From positions 923,001 through 987,000 of the forward strand of contig NZ_FLRH01000004.1 in assembly GCF_900089585.1 (NCBI RefSeq): a DNA stretch of 64,000 nucleotides, given 5' to 3'. Below, in pieces: positions 2,448 through 37,713 of this stretch (the stretch's first letter is position 1; the number at the start of each line of letters is the position of its first letter). The position numbers and the translations under genes were made by a program. This stretch comes from Micromonospora sediminicola (GTDB lineage Bacteria > Actinomycetota > Actinomycetes > Mycobacteriales > Micromonosporaceae). The notes beneath the pieces are model-generated. The model was not told the DNA's origin. It did not search any database and worked only from the letters and a program-made list of their open reading frames with translations.

Positions 2448-3332
2448 TCAGGCCGGGGCCAGCACGATCTCCGCGCGGGCCCGTCCGTCCCGCTCGCTGA
2501 CGATAGCGATCAGCCCGCCGGCCGGGCCGAAGACCGCGTACGGCCCGGCGATCCCCACCGGGGCCAGCGGCCCGCCGTGGGAGAGCACCCGGGCCTCCTC
2601 GGCGGTGGCGTCCCGGCGCGGGAAGTAGCGGTCGGCCGCCGCGTCCAGCGACAGGTTCACCACCTCCGGGGCGCGCTCCTCCAGCTGGTCGAGCGTGGCC
2701 GCCTCGGCCAGCGTGAACGCGCCGACCGAGGTGCGGCGCAGCGCGGTGAGGTGCCCGCCGACCCCGAGCGCCACGCCCGCGTCGCGGGCCAGGGCCCGGA
2801 TGTACGTCCCGGACGAGCAGGTGACGTCGACGTCCACGTCGACCACGTCCGGGGTGTCCCGGCGGATCGCCCGCACGTCCAGCCGGGAGACGGTCACCCG
2901 GCGGGCGGGCAGCTCGACGGTCTCCCCGTCGCGGACCCGCTTGTACGCCCGCTGTCCGTCGATCTTGATGGCGCTGACCGCGCTGGGCACCTGGTCGATC
3001 TCGCCGGTGAGCACGGCCAGCGCGGCGCGTACCGCCTCGTCGGTGACCGCGCCGGCCGGGGTGCTCGCGACCACCTCGCCCTCGGCGTCGTCGGTGACCG
3101 TGGACTGCCCCAGCCGGATCGTCGCGGTGTAGCTCTTGCCGGCGCCGATCACGTAGGTCAGCAGCCGGGTCGCCCGGCCCACCCCGATCACCAGCACGCC
3201 GGTGGCCATCGGGTCCAGGGTGCCGCCGTGGCCCACCCGGCGGGTGCGGGCCAGTCGCCGCACGCGGGCCACCACGTCGTGCGACGTCATGCCGCCGGGC
3301 TTGTCGACCACGATCAGACCGTCTGCGCTCAC
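2448..3332 (-). CDS. truB: tRNA pseudouridine(55) synthase TruB
   Basis: 294-aa enzyme that isomerises U55 of the T-loop of tRNAs to pseudouridine. It starts VSADGLIVVDKPGGMTSHDV, the usual TruB N-terminus, and has the catalytic Asp in GHGGTLDPMATGVL (Asp40 from the chosen start). Later motifs are KSYTATIRLG and CSSGTYIRALARD; a PUA-like C-terminal domain follows. The start is the GTG at 3330-3332; the open frame continues upstream but that part is not TruB-like and would run into the divergent gene at 3442. ribF follows 30 bases downstream. Confidence 0.95.
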   Translation of the reverse strand: MSADGLIVVDKPGGMTSHDVVARVRRLARTRRVGHGGTLDPMATGVLVIGVGRATRLLTYVIGAGKSYTATIRLGQSTVTDDAEGEVVASTPAGAVTDEAVRAALAVLTGEIDQVPSAVSAIKIDGQRAYKRVRDGETVELPARRVTVSRLDVRAIRRDTPDVVDVDVDVTCSSGTYIRALARDAGVALGVGGHLTALRRTSVGAFTLAEAATLDQLEERAPEVVNLSLDAAADRYFPRRDATAEEARVLSHGGPLAPVGIAGPYAVFGPAGGLIAIVSERDGRARAEIVLAPA

Positions 3333-9100: not shown

Positions 9101-9483
9101 GAGGGGGCTCCATTCGGGGGTCAACACACCCGGGGGGGTGCGGGCACCGTCAGGCGCGCGAAAAGCCTTGAAGGGGGATCCGGCACGCTCGTGGAGCCGG
9201 GGGGCCAGCTCACGGGGCCGGGGATGTCCGGCTGGCTCGCGGGGCGGGGGGCCTGCACGCGGCGCCGGGATGATGTGTAACGACCGGCGGCCTGCCGTCA
9301 TTCCCCGGGGACGGGGGTGGCGGCTCAGGGGTTCGCTGCCTGCTCGGTCGTTCACCCGTCTACAACGCCGCCGACCCGCCGCCGATTCCACGCCCGGGGT
9401 GCCGCCCACCACCGCTGAACCGGACAAGCCACCCCAGTCCACGCACCCGGGCGGGTGGAGACCGCGCGCATCCCGACCCCGCA

Positions 9484-9649
9484 GACACCCATGACGTTCC
9501 ACCCACCGGCCGCCAACCCCGCGAGTGGAACACCATGGGTGCCTCCCGGCCGCGGAGACACCCACCACGTTCCACCCAGCGCCCGCCAACCCCGTCAGTG
9601 GAACGCCATGGGTGCCTCCCGACCTCGCAGACACCCCTCACGTACCACC
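9484..9649. repeat. 73-bp tandem repeat, each unit a long hairpin
   Basis: Units start at 9484, 9557 and 9630 (third partial), period 73. In each full unit, 17-base arms pair: 9486-9502 with 9525-9541, and 9559-9575 with 9598-9614 (CACCCATGACGTTCCAC against GTGGAACACCATGGGTG, two mismatches or so). The loop is CCGCCAAC-rich. Differences between copies largely keep the pairing. Confidence 0.8.
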
Positions 9650-9812: not shown

Positions 9813-9923
9813 CCCCAGAAGCGGACAGCCGACGCAATCCGCGCTTACGCCCGACTGAAAGCCACGACGTCGGGGAGCTGGCGGGGTCGGGGCCGAGCCC
9901 GCGACGGGGGCCGATCAACCCGA

Positions 9924-10060
9924 CGCCAGGACCGGGAGCGGCAGGTGGCGGCGGCATCCGGCGGGCGGAGACGCCGCCACGAAACACACGCCAGGACCGG
10001 GAGCGGCATGGCGGCGGCATCCGGCGGGCGGAGACGCCGCCACGACAAACACGGCAGGAC
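9924..10060. repeat. 64-bp tandem repeat with GTGGCGGCG hairpins
   Basis: Two near-identical units start at 9924 and 9989, with a third truncated start at 10052, all beginning CGSCAGGACCGGG. Each unit has an inverted pair: 9945-9953 with 9972-9980 and 10009-10016 with 10035-10042 (GTGGCGGCG/CGCCGCCAC). It lies about 40 bases beyond the stop of the DHH phosphoesterase gene. Confidence 0.75.
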
Positions 10061-10100
10061 CGGGCGACGGTGTCGGAGAAGCAGGCGGGAGGCGGGCCGG

Positions 10101-18609: not shown

Positions 18610-19137
18610 ATGGTGTTGACTTGTGCGGTGGGGACCGGCAGAACACCATCCGACCAGGTCAGAGCGGGGCATTCCCGGCGTCGCCTGCTGCGCGCGGGCG
18701 CGCTCGTGGCGCTGGGTGGCGCGACCGCGCCGCTGACTGGTTGTGATCTTTTCGACCGTGACGACGAGCCGTCGCCGCCGGACGCGTTGGAGCCGTTGGC
18801 GGCCGAGGCGCTCGCCCTGGAGGCCCGCTACCGGGCGGCGGCGACCGCCGCGCCAGCGCTCGCCGCGCGGCTGACCCCGATCGCCGACGCGCACCGGGCG
18901 CACGCCGACGAACTGCGCCGGGTGATCGGTCGGCCGGCGCCCTCCGGCACGCCGGCGGCCGACCCGTCGGGCGCGCCGGTCACCGAGCCGGACGGGGTGC
19001 TGACCGACCTGCGCCGGGCCGAGCAGCAGGGCCGGACCAACGCCGCGAAGGCGTGCGCCGCCGCGCCGGCCGAGCGGGCCGCGCTGCTCGGCTCGATCGC
19101 CGCCGCCCGGGCCACCCACGTGGAGGCCCTGAAGTGA
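18610..19137 (+). CDS. Tat-exported lipoprotein with helical domain
   Basis: 175 aa from ATG 18610 (a GTG at about 18628 is an alternative). The N-terminus carries RRRLLRAG, a twin-arginine motif, a hydrophobic segment and a lipobox LTGC, so the mature protein should be a lipid-anchored exoprotein. The rest is almost all Ala-rich helix ([40 protein letters not shown]) and resembles one half of a ferritin-like bundle. The next gene overlaps by GTGA, and the two are likely partners. Function unknown. Confidence 0.75.
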
Positions 19138-19283
19138 GCGAACGCACCGAGCGCAGCGAGGGCCGTGAGCGCACGCCCGGCTTGCACAGCGTGAGCGAAC
19201 GCACCGAGCGCAGCGAGGGCCGTGAGCGCACGCCCGGCTTGCACAGCGTGAGCGAACGCACCGAGCGCAGCGAGGGCCGCCAG
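19134..19283 (+). repeat. 57-bp tandem repeat starting GTGAGCG
   Basis: Copies begin at 19134, 19191 and 19248 (period 57, third partial to about 19283). Each starts GTGAGCGAACGCACCGAGCG. The first copy sits exactly on the stop/start overlap of the two flanking genes. Because 57 is a multiple of three, the copies stay in frame with the downstream protein. Confidence 0.85.
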
Positions 19284-34470: not shown

Positions 34471-34593
34471 GCAGCCTCCCGCTCCGGCCATGTCCACGAC
34501 GGCCGGCGTGGTTACGCCGACCGTCCCCGCCTACTACCCCGGCGGAGGAGCAACGTAACGCACCGGCACCGGCGGACGCTGGTTACCTCCGCC

Positions 34594-35352
34594 TCATCCT
34601 GACGTAACCGGCGGGCGGGGGCGAGTCGGGCGGGGCCCCGGGCCGGCCGGCTGTGATCTGCGCGACACCGCGGCCTGGACCAGCGCCGTGACCGGCCGAG
34701 GATCGGCCTCGTTCTCCGGATGCCACTGCACGCCGAGCACGAAGCGCCGCGCCGGATCCTCCAGCGCCTCCACCACCCCGTCGTCGGCCCAGCCGGTGAC
34801 CGCCAGGCCGCCGGGGTCGGCCACCGCCTGGTGATGGTACGAGTTGACCCGGTCCACACCGGCCATCACCGTCCCGGCCCGGCTGCCCGGGGCGAAGCGC
34901 ACCGGGTGCGACCCGTAGACCCCGGGGGCCGGCCGGTGCCCGTCGTGCCCGACCACGTCCGGCAGGTGCTGGTGCAGGCTGCCGCCGTACGCGACGGCCA
35001 GCAGCTGCATCCCCCGGCACACGCCCAGCACCGGCAGGTCGGCGGCGAGCGCGGCGGTCAGCAGCGCCACCTCGCCGGCGTCGCGGTCCGGCCGGCTCTC
35101 GGTGCGCGGGTCGGGCGGCTGCCCGTAGCGCTCCGGGCCGACGTCCGCGCCGCCGGCCAGCAGCAGCCCGTCCAGCAGCCCGAGCACGTCGGCGTCGACG
35201 TCGTCCGGGGGCAGCACCACCGCCCGGCCGCCCGCCGCGGTCACCGCCCGTACGTACGCGTGCGGCACCAGCGTCGCCGGCACGTCCCGCCACACCGCCC
35301 AGCCGGCCGGCTCGACGTACGCGGTGACGCCGATGACCGGCCGTCGCCTCAC
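34594..35352 (-). CDS. Class-I glutamine-amidotransferase-like gamma-glutamyl hydrolase (PuuD type)
   Basis: 252 aa. Peptidase C26 fold: GLLLAGGADVGPERYGQP, nucleophile Cys in GVCRGMQLLAVAYGG, and catalytic His/Glu in GVQWHPENEAD. PuuD-like enzymes split gamma-glutamyl-GABA or related gamma-glutamyl amides. Start GTG 35350-35352, which is the last GTG of the 59-bp repeat chain. Upstream lie the SDR, ALDH and glutamine-synthetase-like genes on the same strand, so it likely does the last step of that pathway (see findings). A proline/arginine-rich tail (PGPRPTRPRPP) ends it. Confidence 0.85.
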   Translation of the reverse strand: MRRRPVIGVTAYVEPAGWAVWRDVPATLVPHAYVRAVTAAGGRAVVLPPDDVDADVLGLLDGLLLAGGADVGPERYGQPPDPRTESRPDRDAGEVALLTAALAADLPVLGVCRGMQLLAVAYGGSLHQHLPDVVGHDGHRPAPGVYGSHPVRFAPGSRAGTVMAGVDRVNSYHHQAVADPGGLAVTGWADDGVVEALEDPARRFVLGVQWHPENEADPRPVTALVQAAVSRRSQPAGPGPRPTRPRPPVTSG

Positions 35353-35588
35353 AGTGCTGGCCCGGTTCGCGACTGCGGGGCTCGCAACCCCGGCTCACTC
35401 CTCGCGCTCACAGCGCTGGCCCGGATCGCGACTGCGGGGCTCGCAACCCCGGCTCACTCCTCGCGCTCACAGCGCTGGCCCGGATCGCGACTGCGGGGCT
35501 CGCAACCCCGGCTCACTCCTCGCGCTCACAGCGCTGGCCCGGATCGCGACTGCGGGGCTCGCAACCCCGGCTCACTCCTCGCGCTCAC
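35349..35588 (-). repeat. 59-bp tandem repeat forming a chain of overlapping mini-ORFs
   Basis: Four copies of 59 bp, near identical. On the minus strand, GTG codons occur at 35588, 35529, 35470, 35411 and 35352, exactly 59 apart. Each opens 20 codons (VSARSEPGLRAPQSRSGPAL in the first three) ending in TGA that overlaps the next GTG. The first GTG overlaps the SDR stop, and the last is the hydrolase start. Each unit also has a small CGGGG/CCCCG hairpin. No spacers, so not CRISPR. Confidence 0.9.
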
Positions 35589-36361
35589 AGTGGCGTCACG
35601 TACGCGCCGGTGATGCCGCCGTCGACCACGAACTGCGCGGCGGTCATGAACGAGGCGTCGTCGCTGGCCAGGAACGCCACCGCGGCGGCGATCTCGGTCG
35701 GGTCCCCGAACCGGCCCATCGGCACGTGCACGAGACGCCGGGCGGCCCGCTCCGGGTCCTTGGCGAACAGGTCCAGCAGCAGCGGGGTGGCCACCGGCCC
35801 GGGGCAGAGCGCGTTGACCCGGATGCCCTCGCGGGCGAACTGCACGCCCAACTCCCTGGTCATCGCCAGCACCCCGCCCTTGCTCGCCGTGTACGCGATC
35901 TGCGACGTGGCGGCGCCCATCAGCGCCACGAACGAGGCGGTGTTGATGATCGAGCCCTTGCCCTGCCGGCGCATGTGCGGGATGACGTGCTTGCAGCACA
36001 GGTAGACGCTCGTGGTGTTGACCCGCAGCACCCGCTCCCAGGCGTCCAGCCCGGTCTCCAGGATGGAGTCGTCGTCGGGCGGGGAGATGCCGGCGTTGTT
36101 GAAGGCGACGTCCACCCGGCCGTGCCGGTCCACCACGCCGTCGAAGAGGTCACGGACCGCCGTCTCGTCGGCCACGTCCGCGGCGACGAACTCCCCGTTC
36201 ACCTCCCGCGCCGCCCGGGTGCCGGCGTCGGCGTCGATGTCCACGCAGACCACCCGGGCCCCCTCGGCGGCGAAGCGCCGCACGGTGGCCAGCCCGATGC
36301 CGCTGCCCGCGCCGGTCACCACGGCCACCCGGTCCTGAAGCCGTCCCTGCACTGTGATCAC
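35585..36361 (-). CDS. SDR-family NAD(P)-dependent oxidoreductase
   Basis: 258 aa from GTG 36361, which overlaps the ALDH stop (GTGA); a second in-frame GTG at 36352 is possible. Rossmann motif VVTGAGSGIG, structural NNAG, catalytic Ser in NTASFVAL, and YTASKGG as YxxxK, then PGPVATP. A classical SDR, so alcohol/ketone chemistry. Within the gamma-glutamylation cluster it could oxidise the alcohol of gamma-glutamyl-ethanolamide to an aldehyde for the ALDH. Substrate is inferred from context only. Its stop is the first link of the repeat chain. Confidence 0.87.
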   Translation of the reverse strand: MITVQGRLQDRVAVVTGAGSGIGLATVRRFAAEGARVVCVDIDADAGTRAAREVNGEFVAADVADETAVRDLFDGVVDRHGRVDVAFNNAGISPPDDDSILETGLDAWERVLRVNTTSVYLCCKHVIPHMRRQGKGSIINTASFVALMGAATSQIAYTASKGGVLAMTRELGVQFAREGIRVNALCPGPVATPLLLDLFAKDPERAARRLVHVPMGRFGDPTEIAAAVAFLASDDASFMTAAQFVVDGGITGAYVTPL

Positions 36362-37713
36362 TCCTCGGTGCCGATGAACACGTTCTTGACGTCGGTGAAG
36401 GCGTGCAGCGCGTCCGGGCCCAGCTCGCGGCCGAGGCCGGAGCGTTTCATCCCGCCGAACGGGGTCCAGTAACGCACCGAGGAGTGCGAGTTGACGCTCA
36501 GATTGCCCGACTCCACCGCCCGGGCCACCCGGACGGCACGGCCCACGTCCCGGGTCCAGATCGAGCCGGAGAGGCCGTACTCGGTGTCGTTGGCGAGCCG
36601 GATCGCGTCCGCCTCGTCGTCGAACGGGAGCACCGAGACGACCGGGCCGAAGATCTCCTCCCGCCAGTGCCGGTCCGCCGGGGAGCCGGCGAGCAGCACG
36701 GTCGGGGCGTGCCAGAAGCCGGGGCCGTCGGGGCACGAGCCGGTGAAGGCCACGTCCGCGTCGTCGACGTACCCGGCGACCCGGTCCCGGTGCCCGGCGG
36801 AGATCAGCGGGCCCATCTCGGCGGTCTCGCGGGCCGGGTCCTCCACCCGGAACGCCCGCACGGCCGGTTCGAGCAGTTCCAGGAAGCGGTCGTACACCGG
36901 GCGTTGGACCAGGATCCGGGAGCGGGCGCAGCAGTCCTGGCCGGCGTTGTCGAAGACCGCGGACGGGGCGGTGGCCGCCGCCTTCGCCAGGTCGGCGTCG
37001 GCGAAGACGATGTTCGCCGACTTGCCGCCCAGTTCCAGCGTCACCCGCTTCACCTGGGCGGCGCAGCCGGCCATGATCCGGGTGCCGACCTCGGTGGAGC
37101 CGGTGAAGCAGATCTTGCGGACGGCCGGGTGGGTGACGAACCGTTCGCCGACCACGCCGCCCGGCCCGGGCAGCACGGTGAACACGCCGTCGGGCAGCCC
37201 GGCGTCGCGGGCCAGCTCGGCCAGGCGCAGCGCGGTCAGCGGGGTCAGCTCGGCCGGCTTGAGCACCACCGTGTTGCCGGCCGCGAGCGCGGGGGCGAAT
37301 CCCCAGCCGGCGATCGGCATCGGGAAGTTCCACGGCACGATCACGCCGACCACGCCGAGCGGCTCGTGGAACGTGACGTCGAGCCCGCCGGGCACCGGGA
37401 TCTGCTGGCCGGTCAGCCGTTCCGGCGCGCCCGCGTAGTAGTCGAGCACGTCACGGACGTTGCCGGCCTCCCAACGCGCGTTGCCGATGGTGTGCCCGGC
37501 GTTGCGCACCTCCAGGAGGGCCAACTCCTCCAGATGCGCGTCGACCTGGGCGGCGAACCTCCGCAGCAGCCGCCCCCGGTCGCCCGGCGCCACCCGACGC
37601 CACGTCTCGAACGCGGCAGCCGCCCGCGCGATGGCGGCATCCACGTCCGCCACGGTCGCGGACGCGACCTCCCCGATCCGCCCCCCGTCAACCGGCGAAA
37701 TCACCTCACCCAC
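36358..37713 (-). CDS. Aldehyde dehydrogenase (PuuC/ALDH type)
   Basis: 451 aa from GTG 37713, which has a GAGGGGG ribosome site; the upstream extension into the dyad was rejected. NAD-binding PWNFPMPIAGWGFAPALAAG, Glu in TLELGGKSANIV and catalytic Cys in NAGQDCCARSRI are all present, with FGPVVSVLPF and the terminal YWTPFGGMKRSGLGRELG. Oxidises an aldehyde to an acid with NAD(P)+. In the cluster the substrate would be a gamma-glutamylated aldehyde. The downstream SDR overlaps by four bases. Confidence 0.9.
   Translation of the reverse strand: MGEVISPVDGGRIGEVASATVADVDAAIARAAAAFETWRRVAPGDRGRLLRRFAAQVDAHLEELALLEVRNAGHTIGNARWEAGNVRDVLDYYAGAPERLTGQQIPVPGGLDVTFHEPLGVVGVIVPWNFPMPIAGWGFAPALAAGNTVVLKPAELTPLTALRLAELARDAGLPDGVFTVLPGPGGVVGERFVTHPAVRKICFTGSTEVGTRIMAGCAAQVKRVTLELGGKSANIVFADADLAKAAATAPSAVFDNAGQDCCARSRILVQRPVYDRFLELLEPAVRAFRVEDPARETAEMGPLISAGHRDRVAGYVDDADVAFTGSCPDGPGFWHAPTVLLAGSPADRHWREEIFGPVVSVLPFDDEADAIRLANDTEYGLSGSIWTRDVGRAVRVARAVESGNLSVNSHSSVRYWTPFGGMKRSGLGRELGPDALHAFTDVKNVFIGTEE

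Follow-up and report, generated by a model that had tools for sequence, protein, structure and literature searches.

Four tandem repeats between two enzyme genes of Micromonospora sediminicola very probably belong to a short mobile repeat family of the Micromonosporaceae. In kind the family resembles the MIRUs (mycobacterial interspersed repetitive units, reportedly described by Supply et al. in 1997): its units lie at stop/start codon overlaps and, to judge from their sequences, leave the ribosome an open path into the next gene. The array lies within the window (the whole 64,000-nucleotide stretch of DNA analysed), among the following features:

35585..36355, minus strand: short-chain dehydrogenase/reductase (SDR) gene, upstream of the array; 5' limit approximate
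35530..35588, minus strand: repeat unit 1, a 20-codon mini-ORF; its GTGA (35588-35585) overlaps the SDR stop
35471..35529, minus strand: repeat unit 2, a 20-codon mini-ORF
35412..35470, minus strand: repeat unit 3, a 20-codon mini-ORF
35353..35411, minus strand: repeat unit 4; its mini-ORF TGA (35351-35349) overlaps the hydrolase GTG
34594..35352, minus strand: Peptidase C26 gene (gamma-glutamyl hydrolase type), downstream of the array; GTG start at 35352

The four 59-bp units follow one another head to tail from 35588 to 35353 on the minus strand. Units 1-3 read VSARSEPGLRAPQSRSGPAL and unit 4 reads VSARSEPGLRAPQSRTGPAL; every unit starts with GTGAGCGCGAGGAGTGAGC, and CACTGTGAG flanks the array on both sides. 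Minus-strand GTG codons start at 35588, 35529, 35470, 35411, and 35352. Each unit comprises 20 codons, the terminal TGA sharing bases with the GTG that follows; the SDR gene stops in the first GTGA, and the Peptidase C26 gene starts at the fifth GTG. Tandem Repeats Finder delimits the repeat at 35344-35590 (period 59, 4.2 copies, 98% match, score 473). Coordinates and program together confirm the exact 59-base GTG ladder, with TGA/GTG overlaps between the SDR and hydrolase genes, that a sequence-only reading of this DNA had described, and the geometry of its proposed stop/restart ladder is present in the sequence. Pfam assigns adh_short_C2 to the upstream protein and Peptidase_C26 to the downstream one. 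An aldehyde dehydrogenase gene and a gene of the glutamine-synthetase type lie further upstream on the same strand, neighbours reminiscent of a gamma-glutamylated amine pathway.

The array is not a chance arrangement, because the genome contains its unit at dozens of sites. With up to two mismatches, the head GTGAGCGCGAGGAGTGAGC occurs 51 times in the 6.9-Mb source genome (reversed control: once), where arrays hold one to four units. The unit consists of a core, usually 45 nt, which starts with GTGAGCGCGAGGAGTGAGC and ends with CCCCGCAGTCGCGA, followed by a variable tail of mostly 11-20 nt. A core sequence, GCGAGCCCCGCAGTCGCGA, matched with at most one mismatch in 16 of 16 same-genus genomes of a first survey (8 to 49 matches each), and in 22 of 22 of a second survey that overlaps the first (8 to 57 matches). 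Distribution within the family is patchy (48 of 134 other genomes of the Micromonosporaceae). Outside the family, matches in 171 genomes of the order are at control level: four genomes with one match each, against eight genomes for the reversed control.

The association with gene junctions appears to extend to another genus. Of the 30 loci fetched from genome G155, 16 were read; the upstream frame could be scored in eight, and in six of these the upstream gene stops within a GTGA shortly before the first core. Other inserts break up its cores more frequently, and the pattern is not as clean as in Micromonospora. A palindrome-like insert of about 50 bp, of the type GC[AG]TTCCGGGG...CCGGAATGC, is found inside the repeat unit near position 14-20, both in a Micromonospora (L118, about 2890-3000) and in G155 (L424, L429, and L440).

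Position and frame were scored in 149 arrays from 11 genomes, which represent part of each genome's copies and are not all independent. For genome G000, 33 of 35 fetched loci were scored, the weakest matches (L112 and L113) being left out; for the other ten genomes, arrays were drawn from some of the matches listed. Frames were called as open frames with high third-position G+C, gene starts being inferred from these frames; the script dropped arrays too close to a locus end and kept misplaced heads. The upstream frame could not be scored in 25 of the 149 arrays, nor the downstream frame in eight. In 105 of the 124 scorable arrays, the upstream coding frame stops at unit positions 2-4, within the GTGA (a raw share, uncorrected for the base rate of RTGA overlaps); in five more it stops at the unit's second GTGA. 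The sequence-only reading had held that many copies ignoring stop/start junctions would speak against it; the arrays were checked for this, and it was not seen. Orthology grouping yields 109 groups, and the upstream stop lies at the GTGA in 76 of 89, one member sufficing.

The downstream frame obeys a rule. Phases 2, 0, and 1 occur in 106, 31, and 4 of 141 arrays, and in 81, 20, and 3 of 104 orthologous groups when one member of each is scored; against an expected one third, the rarity of phase 1 across the groups has a binomial p of 1.5e-14. Phase 2 corresponds to stop/restart: the mini-ORF stop overlaps the downstream start in 100 of 106 phase-2 arrays, that is, in 100 of the 141 with a scorable downstream frame. 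Phase 0 is mostly in-frame fusion, since 28 of the 31 arrays are open throughout and three meet a stop first. Total lengths of phase-2 units vary, mostly from 53 to 65 bp. The 94 tandem spacings likewise take several values: 60 bp (37), 59 bp (31), 62 bp (8), 56 bp (7), 61 bp (6), and others (5). Because spacings of 60, 62, and 56 bp are also used, 59 bp is one of several allowed lengths, and the supposed need for an exact period of 59 does not hold. A 60-bp spacing puts the next unit in the same frame, giving read-through. What is rare is a spacing of 1 mod 3, seen at group level in three of 62 spacings, with 61-bp spacings in two groups. Two loci, L201 (G021) and L285 (G034), carry four units each at the 61-bp spacing, which is 1 mod 3; the second GTGA of their units could still offer a stop/restart path.

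A path script traced a ribosome out of the upstream frame, letting it either restart at an overlapping start codon or read through. A path to the downstream frame is open in 111 of 118 arrays and absent in seven. Removal of a single tail base leaves it open in 25 of 118 (21%), and addition of two tail bases in 115 of 472 trials. One added base is often tolerated (324 of 472 trials), because phase 2 then turns into fusion. Units with altered cores give similar information: those with a core length of 1 mod 3 number 26 (20 being 5 nt shorter than usual), of which 19 are in phase 2 and seven in phase 0, with phase 1 unrepresented; the four with a 41-nt core divide into three in phase 0 and one in phase 1. 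Part of the phase-2 excess is a consequence of the shared unit length, and selection need not account for the whole of it.

Comparison of orthologous junctions reveals empty, occupied, and scarred alleles. The SDR-hydrolase junction was compared in 29 species (25 of 80 relatives' loci, plus four loci of the G-numbered genomes). It is empty in 15, of which 13 have a 4-bp gene overlap (ATGA in 11, GTGA in two), bearing out the earlier proposal that the array grew inside an ancestral 4-base overlap; at the other two empty junctions, from Phytohabitans, the stop is TAG and a gap separates the genes. The junction is occupied in 11 species: by four copies in the window; three in cabrerizensis and G021; two in CB01531, orduensis, and G110; and one in NBS 11-29, phytophila, arida, G034, and MP36 (the last with an insert). 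Remnants persist as scars in three species, marina, parastrephiae, and parva. Stop/restart leads to the hydrolase in the window, phytophila, and orduensis; in arida, NBS 11-29 (with one unread base), and G034, the hydrolase frame runs uninterrupted from the first GTG of the unit. These in-frame cases likewise speak against a required period of 59. In M. cabrerizensis (L131) the third unit has GTA instead of GTG, and one step of the ladder is therefore broken.

Presence at this junction changes irregularly. Nine presence changes are needed on the junction tree, six of them forced by well-supported branches, and presence is no more clustered than under label shuffling (176 and 180 of 500 randomisations were as low). 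The sister species M. maritima is empty, as against four copies in the window. Comparison of copy number among relatives, as the sequence-only reading had proposed, gives a range of 0 to 4 between species here; copy number is variable at other loci, too. Two further junctions were judged by eye, using 12 of 30 loci for the L092 type and 22 of 30 for the L100 type, the remainder being distant homologues. The 12 L092-type orthologues comprise two occupied junctions, one with a head-like start only, and nine empty ones with RTGA; the 22 of the L100 type comprise eight occupied (some degenerate), one unclear, and 13 empty. At the L102-type junction, cores are present in two of 30 orthologues (L374 is misaligned). 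Upstream of the L102-type orthologue in other species (L375 and L371), other GTGAGCG-headed short repeats or elements occupy the same junction.

At the L100-type junction (L216 of G032, and L381-L393), a stretch of up to nine bases leading into the first overlap recurs ahead of the downstream overlap; in L216, nine identical bases precede both. This suggests a target duplication at that locus. In a set of 77 arrays, position -1 alone is exceptional (0.58; shuffles average 0.29 and reach 0.45 at most), and the 12-base sum of 5.52 slightly exceeds the maximum of 5.25 from 1000 shuffles. Target-site duplication is not established as a feature of the family.

Most copies carry a Shine-Dalgarno-like tail. 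Pairing with the anti-Shine-Dalgarno sequence averages -9.2 kcal/mol for tails before downstream starts (n = 100), -7.7 for internal tails (n = 94), and -6.4 for the stretch before the first unit (n = 149), compared with -3.4 for random 15-mers (n = 745). The window array is an exception: its tails pair weakly (-2.7 to -3.1) and contain no good Shine-Dalgarno sequence, and its ladder may therefore be leaky.

Neither the encoded peptide nor an RNA fold appears to be the object of conservation. Codon positions of the core vary about equally (mean entropies of 0.161, 0.163, and 0.187, from 115 of the 149 units); the peptide is thus not conserved as a protein, and the missing codon-position signal speaks against protein-type selection on it. 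A stable stem-loop was also considered and rejected, the 149 last units folding no better than dinucleotide shuffles (mean z of +0.32; the window unit alone, -1.28). Of five sample folds, those of L096 and L100 carry little or no weight, the L096 reference being displaced by a few bases and the L100 reference lying outside the unit. With no excess fold or codon-position signal, what is kept is, by these measures, the DNA core together with the reading path.

These features suggest a general model. A unit would insert at the 4-bp RTGA stop/start overlap of two co-directional genes, oriented with them, such that its first GTGA supplies both the stop of the upstream gene and its own start, while its last codons reach the overlap with the downstream start, usually behind a Shine-Dalgarno-like stretch in the tail. 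A ribosome finishing the upstream gene would restart at the unit GTG, translate about 20 codons, and restart again at the next unit or gene; with units of 57, 60, or 63 bp, in-frame fusion would replace stop/restart. Units would multiply locally in tandem and be removed by deletion. Such a mobile mini-ORF element would be tolerated because translation stays coupled. Distribution and alleles point to transposition as the cause of the spread; from the sequences we infer reinitiation at the units in vivo, and the frame rule is probably explained by selection that keeps the ribosome path open.

The frame rule also bears on other readings. Conceivably, though with less probability, the units are selfish insertions without a role: the insertion mechanism would need RTGA and a fixed length, the coupling geometry would be a by-product, and conservation of frame would reflect common descent. 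The lack of protein-level conservation in the peptide, a distribution at the SDR-hydrolase junction as scattered on the tree as shuffled labels, and the existence of scarred alleles all agree with this. Unit totals vary, yet only three of 104 groups are in phase 1, and altered cores are paired with tails that give an allowed phase. The rarity of phase 1 and the altered cores are thus a sign that the path is under selection, though not that the element brings a benefit.

A benefit is the essence of a further proposal, that copy number and tail strength might set the hydrolase level relative to SDR. The 0 to 4 copies among species and the differences in anti-Shine-Dalgarno pairing among tails are what such a tuner would display, but presence changes irregularly, even between the window species and its sister M. 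maritima, and tuning seems unlikely. It is very improbable that the units act as an RNA or DNA signal (a hairpin, terminator, promoter, or REP-like binding site) with incidental mini-ORFs, even though the MIRU-bearing senX3-regX3 region of mycobacteria is reported, in the portion of the paper used here, to drive regX3 independently (PMC4213456). The last units show no excess fold; a scan of 35250-35750 for sigma-70-like promoters and terminators, which does not cover actinobacterial promoters, found neither; Rfam returned no match up to E 1 in 34500-36500; and a signal would have no use for a frame rule.

The preferred reading, a mobile family that keeps the ribosome path open, has a close counterpart in mycobacteria. 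In the parts of the two papers compared, MIRUs are apparently mobile and insert at start codons, with an internal ORF coupled at -4 nt (PMC12548453), and the senX3-regX3 units (77 and 53 bp, both 2 mod 3) lie in tandem between genes and differ among strains (PMC4213456). The family described here is likewise short and apparently mobile, with an ORF coupled to the downstream start through a 4-nt overlap and units in tandem between two genes. The sequence-only reading had claimed a new class of repeat, which gives way before descriptions of MIRUs in the same terms, so far as the compared part extends (PMC12548453). The units found here are dispersed, also tandem, between co-directional genes, and sit where empty alleles have a pre-existing stop/start overlap (13 of 15, and two further loci). 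By analogy the family works like MIRUs, a likeness of description, descent apart; the host is Micromonosporaceae and not mycobacteria, and MIRUs are known here by description and not by sequence. In about a fifth of the scored arrays the downstream gene shares the frame of the unit, and most units carry a Shine-Dalgarno-like tail, features with no MIRU counterpart in the material compared. The mixture of stop/restart with in-frame fusion, and the second, 57-bp family described below, exceed those MIRU descriptions. Among the papers listed by searches of open-licence literature, no title or abstract opening described these repeats in Micromonosporaceae.

REP/BIME and other palindromic interspersed repeats are also short, dispersed, and located between genes. 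The Micromonosporaceae units share these traits, but are without excess RNA fold and are tied to stop/start overlaps and frame. With ordinary 4-bp overlaps and their translational coupling they share site and restart geometry, but they interpose one to four units, and every unit contributes either another stop/restart step or a further in-frame stretch.

Genes are commonly coupled in translation where stop and start codons overlap, and how much sequence fits such a junction without breaking the coupling is hard to measure. Here the genomes of a single genus each offer many replicate insertions. The same junctions occur in empty, single, tandem, in-frame, and scarred forms, and the frame rule is clear. 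An element kind known from mycobacteria is thereby extended to another actinobacterial family. For annotation, the family is a warning that a repeat can be the origin of N-terminal stretches such as VSARSEP... and (V/M)SERTERSEG....

The window also contains an array of a second family:

19134..19279, plus strand: second repeat family, 57-bp units, 2.6 copies; starts at a GTGA stop overlap and runs in frame into the next gene

At 12 places fetched from the source genome, the upstream gene stops at the unit TGA in 11 of 11 scorable cases; unit and downstream gene share a frame at 10 of the 12 places, and the remaining two are in phase 2. The 57-bp pattern occurs in 12 of 150 genomes of the Micromonosporaceae, including 10 of 16 of the same genus. 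The balance tips modestly toward a broader picture, in which at least two Micromonospora families (one of 59/60 bp, one of 57 bp) have come to occupy RTGA overlaps, the path being kept by stop/restart or by N-terminal fusion in frame; Micromonospora would then provide a natural library of tolerated stop/start geometries, with the third phase purged by selection. Two more tandem arrays lie in the window, at 9471-9649 (73-bp units) and 9923-10064 (63-bp units).
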